Shown here in pieces: positions 18,975 to 50,723 of a stretch of 64,000 bases of DNA. Numbering within the stretch: the first letter of the stretch is position 1; every line of letters begins with the position of its first letter. The stretch lies in NCBI GenBank assembly GCA_014239155.1, contig JAAZZQ010000060.1, positions 186,001 to 250,000 of the forward strand, written 5' to 3'. The notes below the pieces were generated by a model, which was given only the letters and a program-made list of their open reading frames with translations, was not told the DNA's origin and made no database searches. Source of the DNA: Lachnospiraceae bacterium (GTDB lineage Bacteria; Bacillota; Clostridia; Lachnospirales; Lachnospiraceae). The translations under genes were made by a program, and so were the position numbers.

Positions 18975-19188
18975 AGTTGGTAAGAAAATATCCATATAGC
19001 AAGTAAAAATCCGTGAGAACATAATTGAGAAGTGAGGGCGATAAATATCACTACAATAAAAAAGTCAGAATATTACCAAGTTAATAAAGTAAAAATGAAA
19101 TATATTACAAAGCGTAAAGAGTAGTATTCTATATTCGTAGAAAATTTGGAAGAATTTGGAATGGACTAAGTCTGTGTATTTGGTTGCC

Positions 19189-19223
19189 TTTTTGTCCTTA
19201 TTTATTTAAAATAAGGACAAAAA
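19189..19223. repeat. Putative recombinase site, left (inverted repeat with 20226-20253)
   Basis: TTTTTGTCCTTATTT-ATTTA-AAATAAGGACAAAAA: 15-bp arms; asymmetric core TCCTTATTTATTTAAAATAA is exactly repeated in inverted orientation at 20231-20250. Confidence 0.7.
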
Positions 19224-19291: not shown

Positions 19292-20218
19292 TTAAAAAAG
19301 TTCTATACATGCTCTTTTTTGCTTTAAATCAGGGTGAACATACATATTCATTGTAGTATTAATGTTGGAATGTCCTAGTAGTTCACTAACGCATTTATAA
19401 TCTGCTCCTTTTTGAATTAGTCTTGTTGCAAAGCTGTGGCGAAGGGAATGAAAATTTAGGTATGAGATATTGTGTTTTATTAGAAAACGCTCATAAAATC
19501 TTCTGTATGTCCGCGGCTCCATAAATGCAGGGCTGTTTGTCAATACATATCCTTGCGTATTAATATTGGGCAGAGATTTCATTGTCTCGTGCAGTTTTTT
19601 GGGAAGTGGAATTCTTCGAGCAGATTTTGCAGTCTTGGGGATTCCTACAATGATTTTTGTGGTTGGCTGCATATCTTTTTGATAGACACGCTGTAAAGTA
19701 TTCTGTATGGTGATAATTTTCTGAACGCAGTCAATATCGCTCCAATGCAAGGCGCACAGTTCGCCAATCCGCATGCCAGTAATTAAACTTAAAAGAATAC
19801 CAAAGGACTTAAAAGACAAATCTGAAGCCACCGCCTCAATAATTGCATCTTGCTCCTCATCTGTAAAAACTTTATTTTTGCTGCTTTGCATTTCAGGAAT
19901 GTAGGAAATTTCTAATTCAAATGGAGAAAGCATATTCTTTTTTGCCCCATATTTTAAAATTTGTTTAATTAACATTACTAGATTTGAGATGGTTGATTTT
20001 TTGATGGTCTTATGCTCTGCATTGTCGCCAGTCTGCCATGCATAGACTTTTTTCTGTATGAATTCCTCATTTAAGTCATTTATTTCCATGTTACCCAAAG
20101 CGGGGAGGATATAATTTTGTAGCTCAAAAGCATAGTAAGCGCTGGTGGATTCTTTAATGTAGTTTTTCTTGTTTTCAAACCATTCCCATGCCAAACATTC
20201 AAACTTCATAGTGAACAC
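19292..20218 (-). CDS. Tyrosine recombinase / site-specific integrase
   Basis: 'GMRIGELCALHWSDID', 'FHSLRHSFATRLIQKG', 'ELLGHSNINTTMNMYVH' (R...HxxR...H...Y); 308 aa; RBS AAAGGAG. Confidence 0.93.
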   Translation of the reverse strand: MFTMKFECLAWEWFENKKNYIKESTSAYYAFELQNYILPALGNMEINDLNEEFIQKKVYAWQTGDNAEHKTIKKSTISNLVMLIKQILKYGAKKNMLSPFELEISYIPEMQSSKNKVFTDEEQDAIIEAVASDLSFKSFGILLSLITGMRIGELCALHWSDIDCVQKIITIQNTLQRVYQKDMQPTTKIIVGIPKTAKSARRIPLPKKLHETMKSLPNINTQGYVLTNSPAFMEPRTYRRFYERFLIKHNISYLNFHSLRHSFATRLIQKGADYKCVSELLGHSNINTTMNMYVHPDLKQKRACIELF

Positions 20219-20225
20219 TCCTTTC

Positions 20226-20253
20226 TGTCTTTATTTTAAATAAATAAGGATGA
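20226..20253. repeat. Putative recombinase site, right (inverted relative to left site)
   Basis: TGTCTTTATTTTAAATAAATAAGGATGA; reverse complement matches left site over 25 nt with one mismatch; lies between divergent integrase and glycosyltransferase starts. Confidence 0.7.
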
Positions 20254-20288
20254 GAATGCAACCATATATGGCACAAAGGAAGAGATTT

Positions 20289-28581: not shown

Positions 28582-28612
28582 TTTCTCAGAATATAACCAT
28601 CTGGGAAAAAAT
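28582..28612. repeat. Putative recombinase site, left (perfect 31-bp inverted repeat with 30072-30102)
   Basis: TTTCTCAGAATATAACCATCTGGGAAAAAAT; imperfect internal arms TTTCTCAGA/TCTGGGAAA around a 9-nt asymmetric spacer. Confidence 0.85.
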
Positions 28613-28872
28613 TTTTATTACATTTTTTTCTTTTTGATTAATTAGTATAATTTTACCATAAATTTTTTAATACTGCAACCTTTTAAGATAAAAGATCACT
28701 TAGCATTTTTAACAAAATTTATGAAAAGCTCTAAAAATACGCAAAAAAATTTATGAAAAAGGGTAGTCAATTTAAAAATTTAGACCGAAAATTAAATAAT
28801 TATAATATATATGGTCAAATTCATGGTCAAAAAATAAAGATATTAGAAAACACGAAAGAGAAGGAGAAAATA

Positions 28873-30042
28873 ATGGGAAGACACGGAGAAAATATCAGGA
28901 AACGCAAAGATGGGAGATGGGAAGCTCGCTACATGGTATATGATACCCAGAAAGGAAAAAAAATTGGAAAATCCGTATATGGACATACTTATGATGAAGT
29001 AAAAAGGAAACGTGCTAACATCATATATCTGCTAAAAAATTCGTCTAAAAAAACAGACTCAAATGCAGAAAAGCAAGAAAAGAACTCATTGAAAGACGTT
29101 TTATTTAAAACAGTTGCTGAACAATGGTTAGTTACAACAAAGGCAGATGACAACTTAAAGCCATCAACCCTTGAAAAATATAGTGTAATTTATCACACTC
29201 ATCTTAAAGAGGTATTTGGTGAAACAAGCTTGGATACATTGACAGAATCTTTTGTAAAAGAAAAGATTTCAAACCACCTAGCTACAGTTATGCTGGCATG
29301 TAATACGCAAAAAGGAATTTATTGTGTATTAAATCAGATTTTGAAATATGCTTCTACGCGTTATCCTATTATACTACCTTCTATAAAAAGACCATCTTTT
29401 AATAAGTATCAGAAACCAGTGAAAATATTTACAGAAGCAGAACAATCAAAGTTGCTTATAGCACTTTATTATCAAACTGATATTTTTAAGATGGCAATGT
29501 TGTTGTGTATGTTTGCAGGTTTGCGTATAGGAGAAACTTGTTCTCTAAAATGGTCAGATATTGATTCGGATAATAAAATACTTACCATAAAAAGAACAGT
29601 GCAGCGGTTATATGTAGAGGGCTTCAAAACAAAAACTGCATTGGTGGAGACTGTACCTAAAAGTATCCATTCTATGCGTGAAATTCCTTTGCCAAATTCT
29701 ATTATAAAGTTACTCTTAGATTTTCAAAATGATAAAGAATATATATTTGGCGGTGATAAGCCACTTGACCCCAAAACAATGAGAAATCATTACAAGAAAA
29801 TTCTTAAAGAAGTAGGCATTACTTATAAAACTTTTCATACATTGCGTCATACTTATGCCACAAATTGCGTTGAAGGTGGTGTAGATACAAAATCTTTATG
29901 CGAATTGCTAGGACATTCTAGTGTCAAGATTACACTAAATTATTATATGCATCCATCAATTGATACCAAACGCAGATATGTTGATAAACTATATGATTTT
30001 TATGAAAAAATTCGTGGTCAGAATGAGGGTAAAGCAAGTTAG
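28873..30042 (+). CDS. Tyrosine recombinase / integrase with N-terminal AP2-like arm-binding domain
   Basis: 'MGRHGENIRKRKDGRWEARYMVYD', 'GLRIGETCSLKWSDID', 'FHTLRHTYATNCVEGG', 'ELLGHSSVKITLNYYMH'; RBS AAGGAG before ATG 28873 (ORF track start 28753 likely early). Confidence 0.93.
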   Translation: MGRHGENIRKRKDGRWEARYMVYDTQKGKKIGKSVYGHTYDEVKRKRANIIYLLKNSSKKTDSNAEKQEKNSLKDVLFKTVAEQWLVTTKADDNLKPSTLEKYSVIYHTHLKEVFGETSLDTLTESFVKEKISNHLATVMLACNTQKGIYCVLNQILKYASTRYPIILPSIKRPSFNKYQKPVKIFTEAEQSKLLIALYYQTDIFKMAMLLCMFAGLRIGETCSLKWSDIDSDNKILTIKRTVQRLYVEGFKTKTALVETVPKSIHSMREIPLPNSIIKLLLDFQNDKEYIFGGDKPLDPKTMRNHYKKILKEVGITYKTFHTLRHTYATNCVEGGVDTKSLCELLGHSSVKITLNYYMHPSIDTKRRYVDKLYDFYEKIRGQNEGKAS

Positions 30043-30071
30043 TTTTTTTAATAATTTCTGGAATTTTAATT

Positions 30072-30102
30072 ATTTTTTCCCAGATGGTTATATTCTGAGA
30101 AA
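30072..30102. repeat. Putative recombinase site, right (perfect inverted copy of 28582-28612)
   Basis: ATTTTTTCCCAGATGGTTATATTCTGAGAAA, exact reverse complement of left site. Confidence 0.85.
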
Positions 30103-30172: not shown

Positions 30173-31561
30173 ATGCCTAAAAAGGGAACAAGGGCGAAAC
30201 TGTTGGTCAGTGATGACAAAAAAGTATGTAAAGCCATACATCAGTATAGCAAGGGGAAAATCAGCAGTGAAAATATGGATGTACTCATGGAAATAGGACA
30301 TGGGTGTATGGTGACAAAAAATTATATATATCAAAGATATGGAGGTATTAAAAGCCTTGAAAAGTTATATCCTGGCTATGTTATAGAAGCAGAGGTAAGG
30401 GAAGCAGGATTTCGAGAAAAAATAGGGCTTCCAAGTGTGTATTTTTCCGCAGCTATGGATAGAGCACTAGGAGATATTAGAATTATGTGGGCACAAGTGA
30501 AAAGTGGAATTAATGATGCAGCCAGCAAAAATGAAAGATTTTCACCGGAAGATAGGCATTATATTCGTTTTGCAATTAAAGTAAGCGGATGCTTTGAAAA
30601 TATACTAAATGGAAAACCAGTGTCAGTGCCAAAGGAGATGCAGCCTAGATATAATAAAATTTTAATGGAACTTGGTGAGGAAAGCGAGCAGCGTGTCAGA
30701 GATCTCAATAGATTTGTATGTAGACAAGCTAGAAAGAGATTACGCAAGCAACATACAGATAATGAAACATATTTTGCCGTAAAAATGAAAGGGTACAAAT
30801 ATGGGGAGTTAGACGGAAAACATGGAATATTTCTTACGACAAAAGTGAGCAGGAAAAGAATGTTTATACCACTGACTGACACAAACGTATATGACAGGAC
30901 GCTCGACATAAAATTAAACACACAAAAGAGAAGCATAGAAATAATTGTACCACTTTTTGTAAATGTAAAACAACATGAAGACTATACAAATGAAATAGGT
31001 ATTTCACTTGGTTTGTGGAATATGATTACGACAAGCACTGGAAATGTATACGGAAGTGAATTTGGAAAAATGCAAAATGAAATTTCCATGTATGTACTGA
31101 AGGAAATGAGTCAAAACGGAAAAGTAAAAACATCTGATACAAAAAAATATATAGCACATAAGGCAAAAATGGATGCAGCACTTAAAAACTATGTGAATAT
31201 GGAGATAAATAGAATGCTAGGAAATGAAAAAACCAAAGTAGTTTATATGGCAAAGCTTCCACGTAATCCCGGTATGTCTATGAAAGGGACAGGTGATACT
31301 TATTTCCTTAGAATGTGGAAGAAGGGGTTTGTGACTGAAAGGATACAGTGGAAATGTCGAGAGAACGATATCAGACTTATAGAAGTGGTTGGAAAGGGAA
31401 TTGGTACAGATTGTAGTGTTTGTGGGCAGAAGGGGTATATCGAAGATGAAAACTTTAAATGTCCAGTCTGTGGTTTTAATGAAAATAAAAAGGTAAATGG
31501 AGCAAGAAATGCTCTGAATAGAGGGAAAACAGGAAAACAACTTAACAAGAAATTGCCATAG
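30173..31561 (+). CDS. TnpB/OrfB-like Zn-ribbon protein, apparently nuclease-dead
   Basis: C-terminal 'CSVCGQKGYIEDENFKCPVCGFNENKKVNGARNALNRG' aligns to the TnpB Zn ribbon + RuvC-III; 'EIGISLGLWNMITTSTGNVYG' aligns to RuvC-I with D to S. Confidence 0.7.
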   Translation: MPKKGTRAKLLVSDDKKVCKAIHQYSKGKISSENMDVLMEIGHGCMVTKNYIYQRYGGIKSLEKLYPGYVIEAEVREAGFREKIGLPSVYFSAAMDRALGDIRIMWAQVKSGINDAASKNERFSPEDRHYIRFAIKVSGCFENILNGKPVSVPKEMQPRYNKILMELGEESEQRVRDLNRFVCRQARKRLRKQHTDNETYFAVKMKGYKYGELDGKHGIFLTTKVSRKRMFIPLTDTNVYDRTLDIKLNTQKRSIEIIVPLFVNVKQHEDYTNEIGISLGLWNMITTSTGNVYGSEFGKMQNEISMYVLKEMSQNGKVKTSDTKKYIAHKAKMDAALKNYVNMEINRMLGNEKTKVVYMAKLPRNPGMSMKGTGDTYFLRMWKKGFVTERIQWKCRENDIRLIEVVGKGIGTDCSVCGQKGYIEDENFKCPVCGFNENKKVNGARNALNRGKTGKQLNKKLP

Positions 31562-31820
31562 AACAAATACAAGGAGATTACACAAAAAAATAAATGGTCA
31601 AACGATACATCTGGAAGATAAACCGATTGGAAAGTCTGGTTTTACTGCAAGTAGATTTGCGTTAGCAAAAACAATGCAGACTGTGGCAGATGGTATCTTG
31701 ATATAAAAAATTAAAAGGCATTGGGGATATACAAAAACAGGTATGCCTGTGTCTTGTGAACTTAGATTTTCAATAGATAAAATTAAGAGTAGCAGGACAC
31801 GAAGCTGAATCAATTGATTT

Positions 31821-31899
31821 GGTACCACTTTGAAAGGTGGCTGTGGTTCCCTATTTATCCACTGCATAGCGCATAGCGCTCAAATGCTGTGCGCGGATA
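31821..31899 (+). ncRNA. Candidate structured RNA downstream of the TnpB-like gene
   Basis: Hairpin GGTACCAC/GTGGTTCC (31821-31850), then TATCC/GGATA enclosing GCGCATAGC/GCTGTGCGC (31856-31899). Confidence 0.4.
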
Positions 31900-31948
31900 T
31901 TGCAGGAATGATTTATTAGGAAGTTAAGAGCATGTAGAAAGGTAACAA

Positions 31949-34586: not shown

Positions 34587-35936
34587 ATGGGAGACGGGAT
34601 GATAAAGGTAATAACATATGGGACGTTTGATCTGTTACATGAGGGGCATTATAGGTTGTTACAGCGTGCAAAGCAGCTTGGTGATTATCTGATTGTTGGG
34701 GTGACCTCAGAAGAATATGACCAAGCAAGGGGAAAACTTAACGTGATGGATTCCTTGATGACACGAATTGAGAATGTCAAAAAGACTGGTTTTGCAGATG
34801 AAATTATTGTTGAAGAGTCACAAGGTCAGAAGTTTCAGGATATTCAGAAATATGGGATTGATATTTTTACAGTGGGTTCTGACTGGATAGGGCAGTTTGA
34901 TTATTTAAAGGACTACTGCAAGGTAGTGTATCTCGATAGAACAAAAAATATATCAAGTACAATGCTGCGCACTAAAAGAACTTCGATACAGAGAATAGGA
35001 ATTATAGGAACAGGGCGTATAGCAAATCGTTTCATACCAGAAGCAATGCTTGTAAGCGGAGTAAATACACAAAGTGTGTATAATCCACATATTGAAAATG
35101 CACAATTATTTGCAAACAAGTGGGAAATTGATGCATATGAAGATCTGGAAGAATTTTATAATTCATTAGATATTGTATACATAGCATCACCACATGAAAC
35201 ACACTACAAGTATATAAAACAGGCATTAGAACACAAAAAACATGTTTTATGCGAGAAACCGATGTGTCTTTCAAAAGTGCAATCAGAAGAAGTGTTTAAA
35301 CTTGCGATGGAGAAGGATCTAGTTTTATTTGAGGGTATTAAGACAGCATATTGTCCGGGATTTATAAAGTTGCTTGGAATTGCATGTGGCGGGATAATAG
35401 GAAATATTAAGGATGTAGAAGCCTGTTTTACAAAATTGGAAGATGACAATAACAGGGAATTAAAAGACAAAAAATATGGTGGAAGCTTTACAGAACTTGG
35501 AAGCTATTGTCTACTCCCAATTTTGAAAATATATGGTCATGATTATGAGGACATAAGGTTTGAGACAATCTGTGATGCCAATGGAATAGATATTTATACG
35601 AAGGTTTATCTGCGTTATCCAAATGGTCTTGCTACTGCAAAATGCGGACTTGGCGTAAAATCGGAAGGAAAGCTTTTGATATCAGGGACAAGAGGTTATA
35701 TCACAACAGAGGCACCGTGGTGGAAGACAAGTTACTTTGAAATACACCGAGAAAGACCAGATGATGTGGAACGCTTTTCGGAACGGTTTCTTGGAGATGG
35801 GCTTAGATATGAAATAAGTGACCTATTGTCTATGATTAATGGAGATAAAAAAAAGGATTTTAAACTGACAAGAGGCGACAGTGTTGCTATGGCAGGGATT
35901 ATGGAGGCATTTTTGAAGTCGCAGGGAAGGATTTAA
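34587..35936 (+). CDS. Fusion: glycerol-3-phosphate cytidylyltransferase (TagD-like) + Gfo/Idh/MocA oxidoreductase
   Basis: 'VITYGTFDLLHEGHYRLLQRAKQLGDYLIVGV' (HxGH) then 'RIGIIGTGRIANRFIPEA...HVLCEKPMCLS'. Confidence 0.9.
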   Translation: MGDGMIKVITYGTFDLLHEGHYRLLQRAKQLGDYLIVGVTSEEYDQARGKLNVMDSLMTRIENVKKTGFADEIIVEESQGQKFQDIQKYGIDIFTVGSDWIGQFDYLKDYCKVVYLDRTKNISSTMLRTKRTSIQRIGIIGTGRIANRFIPEAMLVSGVNTQSVYNPHIENAQLFANKWEIDAYEDLEEFYNSLDIVYIASPHETHYKYIKQALEHKKHVLCEKPMCLSKVQSEEVFKLAMEKDLVLFEGIKTAYCPGFIKLLGIACGGIIGNIKDVEACFTKLEDDNNRELKDKKYGGSFTELGSYCLLPILKIYGHDYEDIRFETICDANGIDIYTKVYLRYPNGLATAKCGLGVKSEGKLLISGTRGYITTEAPWWKTSYFEIHRERPDDVERFSERFLGDGLRYEISDLLSMINGDKKKDFKLTRGDSVAMAGIMEAFLKSQGRI

Positions 35937-35939
35937 GAC

Positions 35940-36668
35940 ATGAAAATATGGGCACATAGAGGATGCAGTCAGATGTATCCTGAAAATACGTTACTTGCGT
36001 TTGAAAAAGCAATAGAGATACAAGGACTTACAGGAATTGAGCTTGATGTTCAGCTTACAAAAGATGGAGAACTTGTGGTAATCCATGATGAGCGAGTGGA
36101 TAGGACTACGAAAAGTATAGGGTATGTAAGGGACTATACATTGAAGGAATTGAAAAAGCTTGATATATATGCAGGAGAAAATAAGATACAACATATTCCA
36201 ACAATGAAGGAAGTGGTTGATCTAATGGAACCAAATTTGAAATTGGGAATGAAATTAAATATTGAGCTGAAAAACAGTATTTATCCATATCATAGTATGG
36301 AGGAGAAAATTATAGAATTTGTACATAAACGAGGCATCGAGAATTTTGTAGTATATTCGACATTTTATGCGAAATCTTTGGAAAAATTAAAAGAATTAGA
36401 TTCACAGGCAGAACTTGCGATACTTGACAGTAAAGTGTCAGATTGTCTATACAAGTTAAGAGGCGGATGCGGCGCTGTAGCAGTTCATCCGTTTTTATAT
36501 GGAATTGATGTATTATTGGAAGAGTTGAAGGGATATAGAGTGAGAGCATGGATGGGAGGACATCTCTATCCAGAAAAACCAACTGGAACGAGACTTGATT
36601 TGGGTAAGCTGGAGAATCAGGGGATTACAGATATATTTTTAAATGAGCCTGAGAGATATTTAATATAA
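35940..36668 (+). CDS. Glycerophosphodiester phosphodiesterase family protein
   Basis: 'WAHRGCSQMYPENTLLAFEKAIE...GIELDVQLTKDGELVVIHDERVDRTT'. Confidence 0.93.
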   Translation: MKIWAHRGCSQMYPENTLLAFEKAIEIQGLTGIELDVQLTKDGELVVIHDERVDRTTKSIGYVRDYTLKELKKLDIYAGENKIQHIPTMKEVVDLMEPNLKLGMKLNIELKNSIYPYHSMEEKIIEFVHKRGIENFVVYSTFYAKSLEKLKELDSQAELAILDSKVSDCLYKLRGGCGAVAVHPFLYGIDVLLEELKGYRVRAWMGGHLYPEKPTGTRLDLGKLENQGITDIFLNEPERYLI

Positions 36669-36808
36669 TTCAGAGGCGATGAAAGTGACTATTGAGATTA
36701 AATAAAAGGAAATATAAAAAGAGAGTTGAGTACGACTATTTGGTTTGGAGGAAGACAAGTATATTTTTGAATTATATTAATAAAAAGTTTATTATAAAGG
36801 TAAAAAAT

Positions 36809-37864
36809 ATGACAGAATATTATGAAAATAACTTATATAAAACAGAAATTAAAGAAATTGTGAATTATAGTTTACTTGATATATTAAAAGACAAAGTATT
36901 TGTTATTGCAGGTGCAAGAGGAATGATTTGCAGTGAACTGATTGATACAATTATGTATGCTAATTTGAATTATGGATTAAATTGTAAAATTTATGGTATA
37001 GTCAGAAATATGCAGGCAGCTGAATATAGATTTAAAGCATATAAAAAAAGTATATATTTTCAGCTTGTACAGGCGGATATAAACAAAGATGTGATTAATA
37101 TTGACAAAGATGTCGATTTTTTTATACAAGGGGCTAGTAATACACATCCAGTTTATTATTCGATATATCCGATAGATACAATATTAACCAATACTGTTGG
37201 GACAAATCGTATGTTGGAATTTGCTTCAAAACATAGATGCAAAAGATTTTTATTTTTATCTTCTGTTGAGGTGTATGGTGAAAATAGAGGGGATATAGAT
37301 AAATTTACGGAAGGTTATTTGGGATATTTGAATTGTAATACACTTAGGGCTGGCTACTCGGAAGCGAAAAGATTAGGAGAAGCGCTTTGTCAGGCATATA
37401 TAGCTGAAAAGGGATTAGACTGTGTAATACCAAGAATAGCAAGAGCTTATGGGGCGGGTCTTTTAAAGGAAGATTCTAAAGCACTATCGCAATTTATTCA
37501 TAATGCATTAAAAGGTGAAGATATTGTATTAAAAAGTAAAGGGGACCAGTTTTATTCTTATGTTTATATTGCGGATATTGTAAGTGCGCTTTTGTTTCTT
37601 ATTGCAAATGGAAAAACAGGAGAAGCTTATAATTTATCAGGTATCGAATCGGATATTACACTTGCAAAGTTGGCAGACTATATTGCCAACTTTGTTGGGA
37701 CAAGAGTAGTATATGATATTCCTAGTGAACAAGAGGCAGCAGGTTATTCAAAAGCGACGAAGGCTATCTTGGATACTAAGAAAATAGAAAATCTTGGATG
37801 GCATTCGCGTTATTCGATCAGAGAAGGAATAAAACGGACATTGCAAATACAAGGGATTAATTGA
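36809..37864 (+). CDS. NAD-dependent epimerase/dehydratase
   Basis: 'VFVIAGARGMICSEL', 'LSSVEVYGE...GYSEAKRLGE' (YxxxK-like); start 36809 preferred over 36692. Confidence 0.85.
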   Translation: MTEYYENNLYKTEIKEIVNYSLLDILKDKVFVIAGARGMICSELIDTIMYANLNYGLNCKIYGIVRNMQAAEYRFKAYKKSIYFQLVQADINKDVINIDKDVDFFIQGASNTHPVYYSIYPIDTILTNTVGTNRMLEFASKHRCKRFLFLSSVEVYGENRGDIDKFTEGYLGYLNCNTLRAGYSEAKRLGEALCQAYIAEKGLDCVIPRIARAYGAGLLKEDSKALSQFIHNALKGEDIVLKSKGDQFYSYVYIADIVSALLFLIANGKTGEAYNLSGIESDITLAKLADYIANFVGTRVVYDIPSEQEAAGYSKATKAILDTKKIENLGWHSRYSIREGIKRTLQIQGIN

Positions 37865-37874
37865 GGAGTCGCTG

Positions 37875-38576
37875 ATGAATACAGCAATTGTGATAGCCGC
37901 AGGCGTAGGACGTAGAACAGGTCAATGTATACCAAAACAGTTCATTAATGTATTAGATAAGCCTATTATTGTATACACATTAGAAAAGTTTCAAAATTCA
38001 AAAAATATAGACAATATTGAAGTTGTTTGTTTAAGTGGGTGGGAAGAAGTTTTAAAGGTGTATGCTATGCAATATGGTATTGCAAAACTAAAGTGGATTG
38101 TTTCAGGTGGAAATAGCAGTCAAGAATCGATTTACATAGGGTTGAAGAATTTGGGAAGCATTTGTAAAAAAGAGGACATTGTAGTAATTCACGATGGAAT
38201 CAGGCCAATGGTTGATGAGGAGATTATTGATTCCTGTATAGATATATGCCAAAAATACGGAAATGGAATTACCGCACTTCCAGTTTATGAACAAGTTTTT
38301 AAGACATATGATGAGGTTTCATCAAGGGAGTATATTCCAAGAGATCGTTTGAAAATTTTACAGACTCCGCAAGCCTATAAATATCAAGAAATAAGGACAG
38401 CGTATGATGAAGCATTCGCTAAAAAAATAGGCGTTCATATATCATCATATGCAAATACAATGATGACAGAATTGGGAAAAACACTTTATTTTTCTAAAGG
38501 TTCGACTAAAAATATCAAGATTACAACAAAAGATGATATAAAAATATTTAAAGCAATGTTGAGGGCAGAACAATGA
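37875..38576 (+). CDS. IspD/TarI-family cytidylyltransferase
   Basis: 'AIVIAAGVGRRTGQCIPKQFINVLDKPIIVYTLEKF', 'VVIHDGIRPMVDEEIID'. Confidence 0.9.
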   Translation: MNTAIVIAAGVGRRTGQCIPKQFINVLDKPIIVYTLEKFQNSKNIDNIEVVCLSGWEEVLKVYAMQYGIAKLKWIVSGGNSSQESIYIGLKNLGSICKKEDIVVIHDGIRPMVDEEIIDSCIDICQKYGNGITALPVYEQVFKTYDEVSSREYIPRDRLKILQTPQAYKYQEIRTAYDEAFAKKIGVHISSYANTMMTELGKTLYFSKGSTKNIKITTKDDIKIFKAMLRAEQ

Positions 38577-39388
38577 TTGAATTAGATCAAGAGACGCTTC
38601 GTAAACTCCAAATGACAGAATTGGAAATGTTGAAAGAGGTTGACAGAATATGTAAAAAATATAATATTAAATATTCTCTTGATGGTGGTACACTGTTGGG
38701 GGCAATACGACATAAAGGATTTATACCTTGGGATGATGATGCAGATATCGTAATGTTAAGATCTGAATATATCAAATTTTACCAAGCGTGCAAAAAAGTA
38801 TTAGATACTGATAAGTTTTTTTTACAGGATTTTAGAACAGATCCAAACTATCGTTGGGGATATTCTAAGTTACGTAGAAATGGGACCATCTTTTTGCGAG
38901 AAGGCCAAGAACATGGAAGATGGAATCAAGGTGTTTTTATAGATATTTTCGTGTATGACCAAGTACCAGATACATTTATTTTTCGCAGATTGCATTTGCT
39001 AATTTGTTTTTGCATTAGGAAAGGCTTGTATTCAGAAGTTGGAAAGAGAAATGCGGCGAATATATTAGTAAGAAAACTGTATCAAGTACTCAATATTGTT
39101 CCACGTGACAGATGGGTTAGGCAACTTGAAAAAATTGCAGAGATTACAAATAGGAAAAGAACAGAACTTGTTAGGCACATGACATATCCATATAGAAAAG
39201 AATGTCGATATGGATTGCCAAGAGAGTGTTTCGATTCATATATAGATAAGGAGTTTGAGGGACACAATTTCAGAGTATTTAAAAAATATGATCTCTATCT
39301 TTCACATTTGTATGGAGAGTATATGAAACTTCCGCCAGTAGAAAATAGGAAAGCACATTCCGTAAGTGAAATAAAACTAATTCATTAA
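38573..39388 (+). CDS. LicD family protein
   Basis: 'YSLDGGTLLGAIRHKGFIPWDDDADIVMLRSEY'. Confidence 0.93.
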   Translation: MIELDQETLRKLQMTELEMLKEVDRICKKYNIKYSLDGGTLLGAIRHKGFIPWDDDADIVMLRSEYIKFYQACKKVLDTDKFFLQDFRTDPNYRWGYSKLRRNGTIFLREGQEHGRWNQGVFIDIFVYDQVPDTFIFRRLHLLICFCIRKGLYSEVGKRNAANILVRKLYQVLNIVPRDRWVRQLEKIAEITNRKRTELVRHMTYPYRKECRYGLPRECFDSYIDKEFEGHNFRVFKKYDLYLSHLYGEYMKLPPVENRKAHSVSEIKLIH

Positions 39389-39536
39389 AGAAGCAGAGAA
39401 AAGGGAGGCAGCAGGAATTGACTGAATATTCTATGAAATGATGACATAAATGTTGTATTTTTGTTGTATAAGATTGAATGTAGAGGATAAGAATTAATAG
39501 GGTTCTAAAAAAGGATTTTGCAGAATAGGAAAGGTT

Positions 39537-40739
39537 ATGTGGGATTTAGAAGAACGGATTGTAAAAGAAAAACAGCGATATTTAGATTTTGTCGAATTGA
39601 ATAAGGGAAAACATATATATATCTATGGAGCAGGGAAACAAGCAATTCCAATCGCTGATTTTTTCAAAGAAAATAATATTATAATAGATGGATTTTGTGT
39701 TACAGATCGATCAAGTAATAGAGGAAAGATTAATAAACTGCCTGTGTATCAAGTTGATGAGCTCCCATATCAGGATGCAGCATTTGTACTTGGAGTGCGC
39801 GTGCAATTAAACAATGAAATAGAAGCAATATTAAAGAACAATGGATATACAAATTATTTACTTGCATCAGATTTAGTACGATATTTAGGACCATATGGGT
39901 ATAGTTTTTATATTAGTCCAATGATTGAAATTACAACGAAGCTTGGGTGTGCGATAGATTGTAAATACTGCCCACAGGAATTATTTATTAGAGAATATTT
40001 AAAAGAAAAAAAATCGGATATGGTGTTATCTTTTGAAAATTATAAAATATGTATTGATAAATTGCCTGAGAATACATTTGTTGAGTTTGCTGGTTTTACG
40101 GAACCATTTTTTAACGCACAATGCATGAAGATGATTCAATATGCAAAAGAAAAAGGACATCGAGTTAATTTATTTACAACGCTCAGGGGACTACGATTAG
40201 ATCAAGTGGATGAACTGTTGAAAATAGATTTTGAAGAATTTGTATTGCATGTTCCAGATCAAGAAGGTTATGCCATTATTCCTGTGGATCAACAGTATAA
40301 AGAAATTGTCAAAAAACTAAGCAGGGCGAAAAAGAAAAATGGAAATAATTTTATTGACTATGCATGTGCTCAGGGAACAGTATTGAATGAAGTAGGAGAA
40401 ATTCTGAAAAACAATATTAGGGTCTATGTAGTACTCAATAACCGGGCGGGTAATTTACAAGATAAGTGTCTGTATGGAAGAAAAGATATACAAGGTAGAT
40501 TAAGATGTGAGCTTTCAAGAGATATTAATCATAATGTGTTATTGCCGGATGGGCGTGTAATTTTGTGCTCAAATGATTGGGGAATGAAGCATGTTATGGG
40601 TAATCTGATATATGAAAGTTATGAGCAGATTTTAAACGGAGAGGAAGCGCAAAAAATAAGGAAATCAATGAGTAATGAGTGTCAGGATTTTGTTTTGTGC
40701 AGAAACTGTTTTCAGGCAATAGAAGAAGGAGATCCCTAA
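39537..40739 (+). CDS. Radical SAM/SPASM-like protein with N-terminal Rossmann-like module
   Basis: 'GKHIYIYGAGKQAIPIADF' N-terminal; 'CAIDCKYCPQE' (CxxxCxxC); C-terminal cysteines 'LPDGRVILCSNDWG...CQDFVLCRNC'. Confidence 0.85.
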   Translation: MWDLEERIVKEKQRYLDFVELNKGKHIYIYGAGKQAIPIADFFKENNIIIDGFCVTDRSSNRGKINKLPVYQVDELPYQDAAFVLGVRVQLNNEIEAILKNNGYTNYLLASDLVRYLGPYGYSFYISPMIEITTKLGCAIDCKYCPQELFIREYLKEKKSDMVLSFENYKICIDKLPENTFVEFAGFTEPFFNAQCMKMIQYAKEKGHRVNLFTTLRGLRLDQVDELLKIDFEEFVLHVPDQEGYAIIPVDQQYKEIVKKLSRAKKKNGNNFIDYACAQGTVLNEVGEILKNNIRVYVVLNNRAGNLQDKCLYGRKDIQGRLRCELSRDINHNVLLPDGRVILCSNDWGMKHVMGNLIYESYEQILNGEEAQKIRKSMSNECQDFVLCRNCFQAIEEGDP

Positions 40740-42512
40740 ATGTACATAGAAAGAATTGATAGCCTAATGGATTTAAAGAAATTAAATTTAGATCAATGTA
40801 TGGTTCTGGCAGATGAAATACGAGAAGCGCTATTGAATACGATTAGTGTGACAGGAGGACATTTATCTTCAAATTTGGGGATTATTGAAGCGACAATTGC
40901 ATTGCATTATGTATTTAATTCTCCTGAGGATAAGATTATATTTGATACGTCACATCAATGTTATACACATAAGATACTGACTGGAAGAAAAAATGCGTAC
41001 TTAGAACCACAACAATATAAAAGATATTCGGGATATACAAATCCGGATGAAAGTGTGCACGATCATTTTAAGTTAGGGCATACTTCAACATCGATCAGTT
41101 TGGCATGTGGTTTGGCAAGGGCAAGGGATTTAAGAGGGGATAAGTCGAATGTGATAGCAGTTATAGGGGATGGTTCACTGAGTGGGGGAGAAGCGCTTGA
41201 AGGGTTAAACTACGGAGGGGCAGAAATAAAAGGTAATCTTATTATTTTGATCAATGATAATCAAATGTCTATTGCGGAAAATTATGGAGGAATATATAAA
41301 AATATAAAAACATTACGTGAAACAAAGGGGAAAACAGATAATAATTTGTTTAAACTGTTAGGATACGATTATAGATATGTGGAAAATGGAAATGATATTC
41401 GGGAATTAGTGCCTGTATTGCAGGAAATTAAAAATATTAATCATCCAATTATTATTCATGTATGTACCATGAAGGGAAAGGGATATGATATAGCTGAAAA
41501 TAATAAGGAAGAGACCCATTTTGTAAAACCATTTGATTTAAAGATTGGGGATATACAGAAACCAGTTATAGGCGAGAGATATGATGTGATTATTAGAGAA
41601 TTCCTAATTAAAAAAATAAGAGCAGATAGAAATATTGTAATTATGACAGCAGCTATGCCAGTTGTTTTAGCGCTATCAAAAGATGTAAGGGAATCTATAG
41701 GGGAACAATACATAGATGTAGGCATTGCAGAAGAACACGCAATATCAATGGCTGGAGGAATAGCAAAAAGTGGTGGAAAACCAATATTTTTTACTAGGGC
41801 AACATTTTATCAAAGAACATACGATCAAATATCACAGGATATTTGCATCAATAATCTCCCAATAACAATGATATTGATAAATGCATCTATATATGCTGCT
41901 ACAGATATGACGCATATAGGGATTTTCGATATTGCAATGATGGCTAATATTCCAAATCTCGTAATGTTGGTACCAACTAATAAACAAGAATATTTAGCAA
42001 TGCTTAATTGGAGTATTGAACAGAATAAACATCCCGTGGCAATCAGAGCACCAAGAAATGGAGTGTATTATGCAAACTATGAAGTTGATACAGACTATGA
42101 TGAGCTAAACAAATTTAAATTGGTTATTCAGGGAGAAGATATTGCGGTTATAGCATTAGGAGATTTTTATCAATTAGGGGAAGAGGTCATCAAATTAATG
42201 AAAGATAAGATTCATATTAATGCAAGTTTGATTAATCCAAGATATGCGACCGGAATTGATGAGACATTATTGAAACGAATTTCTGAAGACCACGATATCG
42301 TGATTACTTTGGAGGATGGTATATTGGACGGTGGATTTGGACAGAAGATTTCTGCATTTTACGGAAATTCAGATATAAGAGTATTAAATTATGGATTCAA
42401 AAAGGAATTTACGGACTGCTATCTGGTGGATGAAATTTTAAGGAAAAATAGACTACAACCAGAAATGATAGTAGAGGATATTATTTCCTTAAAAGAGAAG
42501 ATAAGTGTATAA
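40740..42512 (+). CDS. 1-deoxy-D-xylulose-5-phosphate synthase-like TPP enzyme
   Basis: 'FDTSHQCYTHKILTGRK', 'GHTSTSISLACGLARARDL', 'AVIGDGSLSGGEALEGLN', 'INDNQMSIAENYGG', 'DVGIAEEHAISMAGGIA'. Confidence 0.88.
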   Translation: MYIERIDSLMDLKKLNLDQCMVLADEIREALLNTISVTGGHLSSNLGIIEATIALHYVFNSPEDKIIFDTSHQCYTHKILTGRKNAYLEPQQYKRYSGYTNPDESVHDHFKLGHTSTSISLACGLARARDLRGDKSNVIAVIGDGSLSGGEALEGLNYGGAEIKGNLIILINDNQMSIAENYGGIYKNIKTLRETKGKTDNNLFKLLGYDYRYVENGNDIRELVPVLQEIKNINHPIIIHVCTMKGKGYDIAENNKEETHFVKPFDLKIGDIQKPVIGERYDVIIREFLIKKIRADRNIVIMTAAMPVVLALSKDVRESIGEQYIDVGIAEEHAISMAGGIAKSGGKPIFFTRATFYQRTYDQISQDICINNLPITMILINASIYAATDMTHIGIFDIAMMANIPNLVMLVPTNKQEYLAMLNWSIEQNKHPVAIRAPRNGVYYANYEVDTDYDELNKFKLVIQGEDIAVIALGDFYQLGEEVIKLMKDKIHINASLINPRYATGIDETLLKRISEDHDIVITLEDGILDGGFGQKISAFYGNSDIRVLNYGFKKEFTDCYLVDEILRKNRLQPEMIVEDIISLKEKISV

Positions 42513-43680
42513 CAAGAAGAAAGGCATAATAATGGTAGTATCAATAATTGTACCTATTTATAATATAGAAGCATATGTGGGAAGGTGTATTGAGAGTATT
42601 ATCAACCAACAATATCGAAATATCGAAATTATATTAGTAGATGATGGATCGGTGGATCATTCAGGAGATATATGCGATATGTATGCCCAAAAGGATTCCA
42701 GAATTAAAGTAATACATAAAACAAATGGAGGACGTGTATCTGCTAGAAAAAGTGGAGCTGTTGTAGCAACAGGGGACTATATTATAAATGTAGATGGTGA
42801 CGATTGGATAGAAAAAGCATATATCTCAAATTTTGTATCTGCAATAAAGAAAAGAGATTGTGATGTTGTATGGGGGATATCATATATTAAAGAACAAAAT
42901 CAACACAATGAACTTCAAATACCGATCTTTCTAAAAAATGTAACTGTAGAGACAGAAGAAATGCAAGAAAAATGTTTGCAATTAATTAAAGGGAATAGGG
43001 GATTTCAAAATGAAATAGACTATTCTATTTGGCTTCAATGTACTCGAAGAGAAGTATATATTTCTGTTCAAAAGGAAGTAGATTGTAGAATATCCCGTGG
43101 GGAAGATTTGATATTATCATTGTTCCTTATCAATAAAACTAACAATATCTTTTTTATAAGGAATGATGGATATCATTATGTTCAGAGAGCTACATCATTG
43201 ACACATAACAAAGCTTCTTATAGTTGGAATGAGTATATGATATTAAAGAATGCTTTGTCTAAGTATATGATAAAATATATATCTTTATATAATATTGCAC
43301 AAGGATATTTAGTAAGTACGTATATGGCATATTTTTTTGGAAGTTTACAAGATGAATCAAAAGAATATTTGTATCCTTTCCTAAAGGTAAAAAAGAATAG
43401 CCGTGTGGCTATCTATGGGGCGGGTAATATAGGAGAAAATATAGTTTCGTATTTGAATAACTCTAACGATTATCAAATGTGTATATGGATAGATAGAAAT
43501 AAGTCCGACAAAAAAATAGGAAAATGGCAGGTAAAACCGATAGAGCAAATAGTAGATGTAGAATTTGATTTTATCATTTTGGCGACAAACAGAACCATAT
43601 ATATTGGTGAAATGTGGAACATGGTTAAGAAATTAGGTGTACAAGATGAAAAAATTGTATCTGCATTTGATAATTTTTAA
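42505..43680 (+). CDS. GT2 glycosyltransferase with C-terminal Rossmann-like module
   Basis: 'VSIIVPIYNIEAYVGRCIESIINQQYRNIEIILVDDGSVDHSG'; C-terminal 'VAIYGAGNIGENIVSYLNN'. Confidence 0.9.
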   Translation: MYNKKKGIIMVVSIIVPIYNIEAYVGRCIESIINQQYRNIEIILVDDGSVDHSGDICDMYAQKDSRIKVIHKTNGGRVSARKSGAVVATGDYIINVDGDDWIEKAYISNFVSAIKKRDCDVVWGISYIKEQNQHNELQIPIFLKNVTVETEEMQEKCLQLIKGNRGFQNEIDYSIWLQCTRREVYISVQKEVDCRISRGEDLILSLFLINKTNNIFFIRNDGYHYVQRATSLTHNKASYSWNEYMILKNALSKYMIKYISLYNIAQGYLVSTYMAYFFGSLQDESKEYLYPFLKVKKNSRVAIYGAGNIGENIVSYLNNSNDYQMCIWIDRNKSDKKIGKWQVKPIEQIVDVEFDFIILATNRTIYIGEMWNMVKKLGVQDEKIVSAFDNF

Positions 43681-43776
43681 TATAACTTATTGGAGTTAGT
43701 ACTTGAATTTTTGTTTAGATAGAATATTAGAGAGAAAATACAAGGGTAACTAATAAGGTGAAAGGTTATAACAATC

Positions 43777-44946
43777 ATGATTGAATTCAGTATTATAATG
43801 CCGGTATACAATAATGAAAAATATTTTCCATTGGCGGTAAAAAGCATTGAAAACCAAAATTATGATAATTACGAGCTTATTGTAGTAGAAGATGGTTCTA
43901 CTGATAGAACGCCTCAAATAGCAGATTTTTTGGCAACAAAGAATATGCACATGAAAGTAATACATCAAAAAAATCAATGGATATACAATAGCTTTAATAA
44001 TGGAATTGCCTTAGCATCAGGAAAATATATTTATATTTTAAATTCAGATGATGCCTTGATGCCAGGGACACTTGCATTATTTGAAAGAAAGATTAGAGAG
44101 TACAATCCAGATATTATATGGACAAAAGTATTAATACATGAGTGCGATGCAGAGCAGAATATTATAACTTATGATAAATTGCATTTGAATCAATATGTAA
44201 TAGAGGAACACTTTTATGGGAATAAAAGTGAGGTGGAAAAAGCTTGGCCGTATTTTGTATCGAGTAAATTAGCTTGGAACCAGGCAAATTTGTATCGTCG
44301 GGAGATTATGCAGAGTCAATTATTTCGGAATGATGTATACGGAGCAGATACTTTATATAATATTAGTATAGCTGATAAGATTCGTTCAGCATTGGTTTTG
44401 CAAGAACCAGTATATTTTCATTATATATATGGCAATGAGACAATGAATGCATCAATTGGAAAATATTATTCTTATACGCAGGCAATGCATAATGAAATAT
44501 ATAATAACTATTTACATTTGTTTCAAAATTGGGGATTAGAACAAGAAAACTATATGGAGATGCTTTACAAGATCAGAATGTCAGCATTGACGGGTGAATT
44601 AAGAGCTTTACAAGCAGCAAATTGCCCATTGTCTATAGAAGATAAATTACAATATGCATTTTGCGGATGCATAGATGAAACAGTTAAAAAGTGTGTGTTG
44701 AAAAGTAACCGTGATGAAGAGCTGGAGAGTCGTATTCTTTCTGGAGTAAGAGAATTGCTTTTAAAAGAAGATATAAATATAGATAATAAAATGTATTTTG
44801 CATATGAATTACTGAATTCTCTTTTATGTTATGAGAAAGATGACCAAGATTATAGAACGATTGAAAATGCAGTTAATCATCCGCTTAATCCATATCATAT
44901 AGGAGGAGTTTTTTATAGAAAGTTAATAACAAATAAAGCACATTAA
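43777..44946 (+). CDS. GT2 glycosyltransferase
   Basis: 'FSIIMPVYNNEKYFPLAVKSIENQNYDNYELIVVEDGSTD'. Confidence 0.9.
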   Translation: MIEFSIIMPVYNNEKYFPLAVKSIENQNYDNYELIVVEDGSTDRTPQIADFLATKNMHMKVIHQKNQWIYNSFNNGIALASGKYIYILNSDDALMPGTLALFERKIREYNPDIIWTKVLIHECDAEQNIITYDKLHLNQYVIEEHFYGNKSEVEKAWPYFVSSKLAWNQANLYRREIMQSQLFRNDVYGADTLYNISIADKIRSALVLQEPVYFHYIYGNETMNASIGKYYSYTQAMHNEIYNNYLHLFQNWGLEQENYMEMLYKIRMSALTGELRALQAANCPLSIEDKLQYAFCGCIDETVKKCVLKSNRDEELESRILSGVRELLLKEDINIDNKMYFAYELLNSLLCYEKDDQDYRTIENAVNHPLNPYHIGGVFYRKLITNKAH

Positions 44947-44964
44947 GGGAAGGAATGTCAAGAG

Positions 44965-46134
44965 ATGTTTAATGGAAATATCTTATGTGCAAAAGAAACT
45001 GAGAAGATGGAGGAGGCAGATAAATTGAAAATTTTAGTTACTGGTTCAAATGGTTTTATTGCAAAAAATCTAATTGTAGAATTGCGGAATAAAGGGTATG
45101 AAAATTTGTTGCTTTGTAATCGGGATACGACACCAGAGAAGCTGGAACAATATATAGAAGAATGTGATGTTTTAATACATTTAGCGGGAGTAAATCGACC
45201 TTCCAGTGAAGAGGAATACTATATAGAAAATGTCGGTTTTACGAAAAAAATCGTAAGATTACTTAAGAATAATCACAAAAGGATATGTATACTTTTTTCA
45301 TCAACTATTCATACAGGACGACACAAATGCTATGAGGAAAGTAAACGACAAGGAGAAAAGATATTGCAAGACTATGCAAAGGAATCAGGTTCCTCGCTTT
45401 TTATATTTCGTTTACCAAATGTTTTTGGAAAATGGTGCAGACCAAATTATAATAGTGTTGTAGCCACTTTCTGCTATAATATTTCACATGGACTAGATAT
45501 TAAAGTTAACGATCCGGATGTGCAAATGAATTTAGTTTATATAGATGATGTTGTAAATGAATTTCTCTCTGTTATAGTTTTGGAAGTTGAAGAAATAGTT
45601 AAATATGTAGAGATTTCACACGCTTATCAAATAACAGTTGGAGAAGTGGCACAGGCAATTATATCTTTTGGTCAAAAACATAAAAGACTTGAAGTCCCAC
45701 AGGTTGGCAATTCTTTGATAAAAAAGTTATATAGTACATATTTGAGTTATGTGGAACCTGAGAATTATCGCTATGAACTTAAAATGAATATAGACGCACG
45801 TGGTTCATTTACAGAGTTTCTACATTCACAGGATTTTGGACAGGTGTCCGTAAATATTGCAAAACCCGGGATTATAAAGGGAAACCATTGGCATCATACA
45901 AAAGTTGAAAAGTTTCTAGTAGTGAAAGGTATAGCTTCCATTAAATTTCGTCATATGATAACAGGAAAAATGGTTGAATATATTGTGTCAGATAGAAAAT
46001 TAGAAGTAGTGGATATTCCTGTAGGATATACACACAATATTACGAATATTGGAATAGAAGATTTGGTTACAATTATGTGGGCAAATGAAACATTTGATAG
46101 GGATAGACCAGATACATATTATGAGGAAGTATAG
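44965..46134 (+). CDS. capF: CapF-like epimerase/reductase with C-terminal cupin
   Basis: 'KILVTGSNGFIAKNLIVEL' plus C-terminal 'FTEFLHSQDFGQVSVNIAKPGIIKGNHWHHTKVEKFLVVKG'; next to WecB-like gene as in capEFG. Confidence 0.85.
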   Translation: MFNGNILCAKETEKMEEADKLKILVTGSNGFIAKNLIVELRNKGYENLLLCNRDTTPEKLEQYIEECDVLIHLAGVNRPSSEEEYYIENVGFTKKIVRLLKNNHKRICILFSSTIHTGRHKCYEESKRQGEKILQDYAKESGSSLFIFRLPNVFGKWCRPNYNSVVATFCYNISHGLDIKVNDPDVQMNLVYIDDVVNEFLSVIVLEVEEIVKYVEISHAYQITVGEVAQAIISFGQKHKRLEVPQVGNSLIKKLYSTYLSYVEPENYRYELKMNIDARGSFTEFLHSQDFGQVSVNIAKPGIIKGNHWHHTKVEKFLVVKGIASIKFRHMITGKMVEYIVSDRKLEVVDIPVGYTHNITNIGIEDLVTIMWANETFDRDRPDTYYEEV

Positions 46135-46137
46135 TGT

Positions 46138-47277
46138 ATGAAACAGTTGAAGTTAATGACTATTATAGGAACAAGACCAGAAATTATTAGGCTTTCGGAA
46201 GTGATTAAAAAATGTGATTTGTATTTTGATCATATTTTAGTTCATACAGGTCAAAATTATGATTATTCTTTAAACCAAATTTTTTTTGAAGAATTGGGAT
46301 TGAGAAAGCCAGATTTTTATTTAGATGTTGTGGGTAAAAATTTAGGGGAAACAATAGGAAATATTATCAGTAAAAGTTATGATCTGATGTTGGAGCAAAA
46401 GCCAGATGCACTTTTGATATTGGGAGATACAAATTCGGCGCTTTCAGCAATTTCAGCAAAACGATTAAAAATTCCTATTTTTCATATGGAAGCAGGAAAT
46501 CGGTGTTTTGATGAAAATTTGCCGGAGGAAATCAATCGGCGTATTGTAGATCATATTTCTGATATTAATATGTGCTATTCAGAACATGCTAGGAGATATT
46601 TGAATGTTGAAGGGATGGCAAAAGAAAGAACCTATGTGACAGGTTCTCCAATGGCAGAGGTTTTAAGTATGCATTTGAATAAAATTTTGGCAAGTGATGT
46701 TTTGGACAAATTAGGGTTAAAAGCTAAGGAATATATTTTGTTATCTGCGCATAGGGAAGAAAACATTGATAATGAAGATAATTTTTATAAACTAATGGAT
46801 GCGGTTAACTGTATTACAGATACATACCAGATACCAGTAATATATAGTATGCATCCGCGAAGTAAGCATTTTATAGAACAACGAGGATTTCAGTTTGGTT
46901 CTTTGGTACGAGAGATGCAACCATTTGGTTTTATTGATTACAATTGCCTACAAATAAATGCGAAGTGTGTAGTGTCAGATAGCGGAACACTACCAGAAGA
47001 GAGTGCATTTTTTAGTGTAAAGGGATATCCATTTGCGGCTGTCTGCATTCGTACATCTACGGAAAGACCAGAAGCAATGGACAAAGGGAATTTTATTCTT
47101 GCGGGAATTGGTAGGAAAAGTGTATTGCAGGGAATTAATGTTGCAATACAAATGAGTGAAGCAAATATTATGGCATCCGAAGTTCCTGATTACAGAGAAG
47201 AAAATGTCAGTATGAAGGTAATAAAGATTATACAAAGTTATGTATCTATTATAAATCGTATGGTTTGGAGGAAATAA
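46138..47277 (+). CDS. wecB: UDP-N-acetylglucosamine 2-epimerase (non-hydrolysing; CapG/WecB-like)
   Basis: 'LMTIIGTRPEIIRLSEVIKKCD', 'VHTGQNYD', 'FHMEAGNRCFDENLPEEINRRIVDHISDIN'. Confidence 0.92.
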   Translation: MKQLKLMTIIGTRPEIIRLSEVIKKCDLYFDHILVHTGQNYDYSLNQIFFEELGLRKPDFYLDVVGKNLGETIGNIISKSYDLMLEQKPDALLILGDTNSALSAISAKRLKIPIFHMEAGNRCFDENLPEEINRRIVDHISDINMCYSEHARRYLNVEGMAKERTYVTGSPMAEVLSMHLNKILASDVLDKLGLKAKEYILLSAHREENIDNEDNFYKLMDAVNCITDTYQIPVIYSMHPRSKHFIEQRGFQFGSLVREMQPFGFIDYNCLQINAKCVVSDSGTLPEESAFFSVKGYPFAAVCIRTSTERPEAMDKGNFILAGIGRKSVLQGINVAIQMSEANIMASEVPDYREENVSMKVIKIIQSYVSIINRMVWRK

Positions 47278-47300
47278 AGTATGGTTTATTATGATAATGA

Positions 47301-48575
47301 ATGTGGGAGGAAATGATGAGAGTATTATGGTTGTGCAATTTAGTCCTTCCAGATTTCAGTCAGGAATTTGGAATAAAAAGAAATAATTTTGGTGGTTGGA
47401 TGACAGCCATGATGTATGAATTGGAAAAAAGAGAGGAAATAAACATCAGTTTATGCTTTCCTATTTACGATAAAAGTCGATTGAAAGATGGAAGCTGTAA
47501 TAACCATGATTATTATACATATTTAGATAATATAAATGCAGAAACTTATGGTCCAGAATTGATTGAAGCATTTGAACAGATATTAAGAAAGGCAGATCCA
47601 GATATTGTCCATATTTGGGGAACAGAGTATCCGCATACAACGGCGATGTTACAGGCATGTAAAAACAAAGGATTTTTGAATAAGGTTGTTGTAGATATTC
47701 AAGGACTTGTATCTGTTTGTTCTAAGCATTATTTGACTGGAATACCAAAGAAGTATAGAGCCTTAAAAAGTGGAGATATCACAAGTATGGAAGAGGACAA
47801 GATTTTATTCGAGAAACGTGGAAAGTACGAAATAGAAAGTATAAAGATGGCTTATCATGTATTGGGTCGGACAGATTGGGATAGGGCGTGTATTGAGACA
47901 ATAAATCCCAATATTCAATACTATATCTGTGATAGGATTTTAAGAACTATTTTTTATGAGTATGCTGCTAAATGGAAATATAAGGAATGTAAGAAGCATA
48001 GTGTCTTTGTAAGTCAAGCTTCTTATCCAATTAAAGGATTTCACTATTTATTACAGGCATTACCTGTTATTATCGAAAAGTATTCAGATACGCATGTATA
48101 CGTAGCAGGAAAAGATATTTTTAATGTAGAAGAAAAGGAACCTTATGCGGTTTATCTTGAAGCGCTTATGGAACAATTGAATTTAAGAGAACATATATCT
48201 TTTATTGGCAAGTTGGATGAGAGGCAAATGATACAACAATACCTTAATGCAAATGTGTTTGTTTCAGCCTCTACAATTGAAAATTCTCCTAATTCGTTGA
48301 GTGAGGCGATGATACTTGGGGTGCCTTGTGTGGCTTCTTATGTTGGAGGGGTTTATAGTAAGATGACTTTTAATGTGGAGGGTTTTTTATATCCGCATAA
48401 TGAACCGATACTGTTGGCATATTATATTTGTAAAGTGTTTGAGAATAAAGATAATTTATGCGAAAAGTTTTCTAATAATTCGGTACATAAGATGCTAAAA
48501 ATTGCTAGTCCTAAGCATAATACCAATAGAATAGTACAGATATATAGAGAGATAGAGAGTAAAAATACTAAATAA
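47301..48575 (+). CDS. GT4-like glycosyltransferase
   Basis: 'VFVSQASYPIKGFHYLLQALP', 'ANVFVSASTIENSPNSLSEAMILGVPCVASYVGG'. Confidence 0.9.
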   Translation: MWEEMMRVLWLCNLVLPDFSQEFGIKRNNFGGWMTAMMYELEKREEINISLCFPIYDKSRLKDGSCNNHDYYTYLDNINAETYGPELIEAFEQILRKADPDIVHIWGTEYPHTTAMLQACKNKGFLNKVVVDIQGLVSVCSKHYLTGIPKKYRALKSGDITSMEEDKILFEKRGKYEIESIKMAYHVLGRTDWDRACIETINPNIQYYICDRILRTIFYEYAAKWKYKECKKHSVFVSQASYPIKGFHYLLQALPVIIEKYSDTHVYVAGKDIFNVEEKEPYAVYLEALMEQLNLREHISFIGKLDERQMIQQYLNANVFVSASTIENSPNSLSEAMILGVPCVASYVGGVYSKMTFNVEGFLYPHNEPILLAYYICKVFENKDNLCEKFSNNSVHKMLKIASPKHNTNRIVQIYREIESKNTK

Positions 48576-48608
48576 GAATTTATAATATTAGTTTATTGAT
48601 GGTTATTA

Positions 48609-49382: not shown

Positions 49383-49400
49383 AAGGAGAGTAATAGATAG

Positions 49401-50702: not shown

Positions 50703-50723
50703 TCATATAGAGGAAGAAGAGAT

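Follow-up and report, generated by a model that had tools for sequence, protein, structure and literature searches.

The window, the whole 64,000-nucleotide stretch of Lachnospiraceae DNA that was analyzed, carries a tyrosine recombinase gene (int) between inverted repeats, followed on the same strand by a TnpB-like gene, a structured RNA, and a locus of about 20 kb that, judging by its sequence, is a teichoic-acid-type surface polymer operon (Table 1). The gene that directly follows the RNA belongs to one family in most relatives, and a reading of its motifs suggests that its product in the window is TagB/TagF-like. Behind it lie a glycerol-3-phosphate cytidylyltransferase-oxidoreductase fusion, a glycerophosphodiesterase-type gene, an epimerase, a ribitol-5-phosphate/MEP cytidylyltransferase, a LicD-type gene, glycosyltransferases, and an aminotransferase.

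Table 1. Features of the recombinase-TnpB-polymer locus in the window, and classes of switch found at the same position in related loci
Feature	Position	Strand	Basis or description
Invertible segment, 1.5 kb	28582-30102		Inverted homologue in L086; L094 scaffold holds the two orientations
Left recombination site	28582-28612	+	Repeat search; arm and spacer layout from 11 sites in relatives
27-bp core of left site	28582-28608		9-bp arm TTTCTCAGA, 9-bp spacer ATATAACCA, 9-bp arm TCTGGGAAA
Outward-facing promoter (predicted)	28650-28678	-	Aligns with the promoter in 14 other invertible segments
Tyrosine recombinase gene (predicted invertase)	28873-30042	+	Pfam PF00589 and PF14659
Right recombination site	30072-30102	-	Exact inverted copy of the left site
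Nuclease-dead TnpB-like gene	30173-31561	+	NCBIfam, profile alignment, Cas12f alignment
Structured RNA between TnpB-like gene and operon	31562-31910	+	Conserved core 31711-31904; folding z-score, covariation
First surface-polymer gene, 855 aa	31949-34516	+	No family match; motifs resemble TagB/TagF-type CDP-glycerol transferases
Remaining surface-polymer operon	34587-51848	+	Later genes named from sequence, no profile scan
Switch class a			1.4-1.5-kb segment; tyrosine recombinase inside
Switch class b			~340-bp segment; class-a-type site, no int
Switch class c			~110-160-bp segment; CAAAAAGTgtACTTTTTG-type repeats, adjoins a serine recombinase

The segment is bounded by a 31-bp sequence (TTTCTCAGAATATAACCATCTGGGAAAAAAT) and its exact reverse complement, and the repeat arms reach 36 nt at 94% when mismatches are allowed. 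No match to this inverted repeat appeared in 100 dinucleotide shuffles with 3 mismatches allowed. The whole 4.57-Mb genome holds two copies only, both here (27-bp core, up to 3 mismatches), and the exact core was absent from the viral contigs searched. The repeat search, the shuffles, and the genome-wide count together confirm the location and exactness of the repeat given in a preliminary description of the locus, which had also correctly named the recombinase gene and its 260-bp leader (28613 to 28872) as the sole content of the segment. That description had further read each repeat as two arms around a spacer, as in other tyrosine recombinase sites, and this layout is supported as 9 + 9 + 9 bp by 11 sites of relatives, in which the arms are conserved (TTTCGCAGA / TCTGCGAAA type) and the spacer varies from locus to locus. 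Although spacers differ among loci, the two window sites have the same one. Conserved arms together with a spacer common to both copies fit what a tyrosine recombinase requires of its sites.

The recombinase matches Pfam Phage_integrase with an E value of 1.9e-26, and the catalytic set R...K...HxLRH...GH...Y is present in the alignment. Because Phage_integrase is a family of tyrosine and not serine recombinases, the label "Hin-like" first given to the cassette holds for its mode of action and has to be dropped for the enzyme, which lies outside the Hin/DNA-invertase family of serine recombinases. Hin-type serine recombinases do occur in sister loci, with sites unlike those of the window. The window recombinase would act on the two sites that enclose it, to which it is linked by association and by its intact catalytic residues. 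Elsewhere in the window, a second integrase gene (19292 to 20218, minus strand) is 31% identical to the first and is enclosed by inverted repeats of its own (19177 to 19223 and 20222 to 20268), which are 47 nt long and 85% complementary and contain an internal palindrome; a glycosyltransferase gene starts at 20250, inside the right arm. This cassette may be a further switch that works by inversion at this surface locus.

Inversion of the segment, predicted from the repeats in the preliminary description, is well supported by int-bearing segments that are inverted between related loci. In L086, int lies on the opposite strand between the repeats; compared with L081, the segment is inverted over 1,511 bp at 72% while the downstream region is collinear, and compared with the window it is likewise inverted. 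In the scaffold of L094, identical copies of opposite orientation lie on either side of a run of N. This suggests that the population was mixed, although an artefact of assembly or a genuine inverted duplication could also account for it. In the serine-recombinase class, about 180 bp are inverted between L058 and L061, with collinear flanks on both sides. The search for flipped alleles thus succeeded among these relatives, while the near-identical loci L018 and L056 proved to be oriented as in the window. As a separate observation, the homology of the window with L057 breaks off precisely at the outer boundary of the left repeat (28581); the DNA upstream is unrelated, as if entire loci had been swapped at the recombination site.

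Each segment has one conserved, outward-facing predicted promoter, located near the end beside the int start and on the strand opposite int. The pattern conserved across segments consists of an A-tract, TTGnCA, 17 nt containing TG, TArACT or a similar hexamer, and then ccGATATA. In the window, a −35 element of TTGCAG (28678 to 28673) is separated by 17 nt from a −10 element of TAAAAT (28655 to 28650); these hexamers are imperfect, and the upstream A-tract and the TG before the −10 element are common to the window and the 14 aligned segments. A generic promoter scan of the window gave no excess over shuffles, so the promoter assignment stands on conservation. The predicted promoter is aimed at the TnpB-like gene in L061, L072, L075, L086, and L091 and away from it in the window and 16 others. 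Because it reads away from the TnpB-like gene, the orientation present in the window is predicted to be the OFF state. The earlier proposal that inversion would reorient a promoter relative to the TnpB-like gene and the glycan genes therefore keeps its target and changes its promoter: the key element appears to be this outward promoter in the leader, conserved in the alignment and opposite in strand to int, and not the promoter of int itself.

The protein encoded directly after the cassette scored 54.7 bits against NCBIfam guided_TnpB, under the family cut-off of 100, and was aligned to the intact TnpB proteins of the same genome with an hhalign probability of 92%. In the profile alignment with these intact TnpBs, the RuvC residues D, E, and D correspond to S278, A360, and K440; the position of K440 agrees with an alignment to solved Cas12f, in which we take the aligned residue to be catalytic. 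All three acidic residues are missing in 47 of 47 TnpB-like proteins. Values of dN/dS for the gene were 0.05 to 0.22 in ten pairs, with 0.057 for the window and L057. Because the catalytic residues are lost throughout while dN/dS is low, the gene is exapted, nuclease-dead, and under purifying selection, and not decaying. An inactivated RuvC domain in a TnpB homologue is one feature of TldRs (TnpB-like nuclease-dead repressors), and the window protein shares it. An AlphaFold2 model of the protein, built with 7 sequences, had a mean pLDDT of 37 and was set aside.

Between the TnpB-like gene and the polymer operon, the window RNA folds with a z-score of −4.58 and shows covariation within the window's clade. 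At the homologous position in a sister clade (19 sequences), an RNA with 34 pairs, including a pseudoknot helix, has 94.5% of cells paired and compensatory changes in 24 of the 34 pairs, and none of 500 shuffles did as well. The model of this sister-clade RNA gave 38 hits in 116 genomes. By coordinate comparison, all hits except one duplicated copy lie directly downstream of a TnpB-like gene, and further copies, again beside the TnpB-like gene, occur in different families as well as in viral contigs. The sister-clade covariance model had no hit on the window RNA, so the two RNAs are taken as homologous from their position, a GGCAT/ATGCC element, and the same general layout. Rfam 15 contained no match to the structured RNA above the gathering score. 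The preliminary description had recognized neither this RNA nor the loss of the nuclease. In L093 (G017 contig 3), two RNA copies (8669 to 8804 and 7136 to 7271, minus strand) flank a gene resembling Rpn-type nucleases/transposases. Two IMG/VR contigs classed as viral (L149 and L150) carry a dead TnpB with the RNA and further genes behind it, which in L149 are of the surface-polymer type; in addition, L149 encodes a serine recombinase and contains a 28-bp inverted repeat. These contigs may be misclassified chromosome or cargo.

Using the TnpB-like protein as a marker, 40 loci were fetched and their upstream regions were searched for repeats. Relatives of the protein were present in 28 of the 144 genomes searched, the window's own aside, nearly all of them from the window's genus; further relatives come from different families within the order, and genomes carry several such loci. 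Across about 40 loci, mostly from one Lachnospiraceae genus, the order is the same: usually a switch, then a dead TnpB homologue, the structured RNA, and surface-polymer genes. Three types of switch are exchangeable at the same position, with int inside the segment, with int absent, or with a serine recombinase outside, and about 10 relatives have no detectable repeat upstream. One int-less segment of about 340 bp (class b) is found on contig 27 of the window's genome. A stand-alone recombinase gene (G000 contig 54, 55359 to 56465), 51% identical to that of the window and without flanking repeats, could flip the contig 27 segment in trans.

We consider it highly probable that the window contains a self-encoded, tyrosine-recombinase promoter switch that makes expression of the polymer operon phase-variable, together with that of the dead TnpB and its RNA. 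As in known invertons, identical inverted sites (31 of 31 positions) flank a promoter, here recognized by sequence conservation, and both orientations exist, here between related loci and in one scaffold. Recombinase made inside the segment would recombine the inverted 27-bp sites and flip the 1.5-kb segment along with its own gene. In the ON state, int would be directed away from the TnpB-like gene, and transcription starting at the promoter would cross the site and enter that gene, the RNA, and the 20-kb operon. In the OFF state, as in the window, int would point toward the TnpB-like gene and the promoter outward in the other direction; some transcription might still reach the TnpB-like gene by read-through from int. 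The TnpB-like protein, kept by selection with its RNA after loss of the nuclease, would most likely be a regulator made in ON cells only. We infer from these comparisons that the promoter is active, that inversion takes place in this strain, and that the protein and RNA have a regulatory role.

The repeats could instead be the termini of a small tyrosine-recombinase transposon that sits beside the TnpB-like gene, with the two orientations arising as separate insertions, a possibility raised in the preliminary description itself. In favor of this reading, the homology shared with L057 begins precisely at the outer boundary of the left repeat. However, from species to species and even between families, the cassette keeps its place immediately ahead of the TnpB-like gene, and no copy at an unrelated position was found in the genome or in the related loci. 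Int-less cassettes with a like site and promoter also exist, the site occurs only twice in the genome, and in the serine-recombinase pair L058 and L061 the segment alone is inverted between flanks that are both collinear. A transposon is thus improbable. A further reading takes the cassette for the decayed or inactive remnant of an integrase, with a repeat devoid of function, but int is intact, retains its catalytic residues, and has a dN/dS of 0.13 between the window and L057, and the two sites have stayed identical despite spacer differences between loci; we regard a remnant as very improbable. The evidence therefore favors the promoter switch.

Of particular interest is how the dead TnpB and its RNA would act once the switch is ON. 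A TldR-type, RNA-guided repressor that silences other surface loci in the ON state has its appeal, since hin is known to invert promoters at csrA-TldR loci, and the csrA-linked TldRs behind these hin-controlled promoters use guides against fliC (PMC13418256). The loss of all three catalytic residues under strong purifying selection, a structured RNA of its own immediately 3′ of the gene, and the presence of several loci per genome are consistent with such a repressor. Searches for a guide gave nothing beyond chance. The 20 nt after the inferred scaffold, the end of which is uncertain, had no genomic target with up to 3 mismatches save one likely chance hit; 16-nt matches with 2 mismatches were near the chance number; and the RNA region of one locus, compared with further loci in its genome, gave no promoter matches. 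The stretch after the scaffold either runs into the ribosome-binding region or folds into hairpins, is not hypervariable between close relatives, and does not resemble a guide. Given the uncertain scaffold end, these searches fall short of a clear negative; guided repression is possible, although we lean against it.

The main alternative to a guided repressor is that the dead TnpB works in cis without a guide, binding the leader RNA of its own operon to control transcription elongation or polymer-gene translation. In nearly all loci, the RNA lies inside the operon, from the TnpB-like gene to the first polymer gene, and none was found apart from these genes. The empty guide searches agree with such a role, and an analogy exists in UpxY, the leader-specific antiterminators of Bacteroides capsule operons. 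TnpB guide RNAs, however, also sit directly 3′ of tnpB, so that position alone cannot separate the two readings; we rate cis action as rather unlikely. What we put forward tentatively, at somewhat under an even likelihood, is a new type of phase-variable regulator, in which a dead TnpB with a large new RNA, switched by a self-inverting tyrosine-recombinase cassette or its serine-recombinase counterpart, picks which of several teichoic-acid-type loci is expressed, via either guided cross-repression or guide-free leader action.

Several known systems share parts of this arrangement. In the Hin segment of Salmonella, the gene for a serine recombinase and an outward promoter are contained within the inverted DNA; the window has the same layout of gene and promoter, but with a tyrosine recombinase and 9 + 9 + 9-bp sites instead. 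Switches run by tyrosine recombinases include those of RecV in Clostridioides difficile (PMC5386303, PMC9286219) and PsrA in Streptococcus pneumoniae (PMC7096588). In these, as in fim and as predicted for the window, a tyrosine recombinase inverts DNA between short inverted repeats. The recombinase of such switches is usually encoded outside the segment, whereas in the window it is inside, so a flip alters what int transcription runs into. The first genes of Bacteroides capsule operons (UpxY/UpxZ) are regulators. Both these operons and the phase-variable capsule operons of Akkermansia (PMC13343947) resemble the window in having invertible promoters ahead of surface polysaccharide operons, but the first gene in the window encodes a dead TnpB with its own RNA, and the host is a Gram-positive Lachnospiraceae.

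The csrA-TldR loci of Oscillibacter and Flavonifractor have an upstream hin, promoter inversions of about 120 bp, and identified guides (PMC13418256, Nat Microbiol 2026). They likewise place a nuclease-dead TnpB and an adjoining structured RNA behind a recombinase-flipped promoter, with several loci per genome. Features, and not a tree, are the basis of this likeness, and the differences are clear: the csrA-TldR loci combine a serine recombinase, a FliA-type promoter, csrA/fliC, and identified guides, whereas the window has a tyrosine recombinase inside the segment, a sigma-A-like promoter, a teichoic-acid-type operon, and no guide found.

Inversion of promoters, invertases of the tyrosine type, and regulators derived from dead TnpB have each been reported singly, as has the pairing of a serine invertase with a TldR. 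In the open-licence literature, no paper was found in which a dead TnpB accompanies a tyrosine-recombinase inversion or a surface-polymer operon; within that literature, the combination of a tyrosine recombinase inside the segment, a surface-polymer operon, a new RNA, and exchangeable recombinases appears to be new. The covarying RNA gives a direct handle on how the dead TnpB acts, guided or not. If the proposed switch is correct, exapted TnpB proteins would control surface polymers besides flagellin, their expression would be bet-hedged through DNA inversion, and the recombinase that does the flipping would be swappable, tyrosine for serine, at one locus. Such a switch would also explain surface variation in a gut Lachnospiraceae group.
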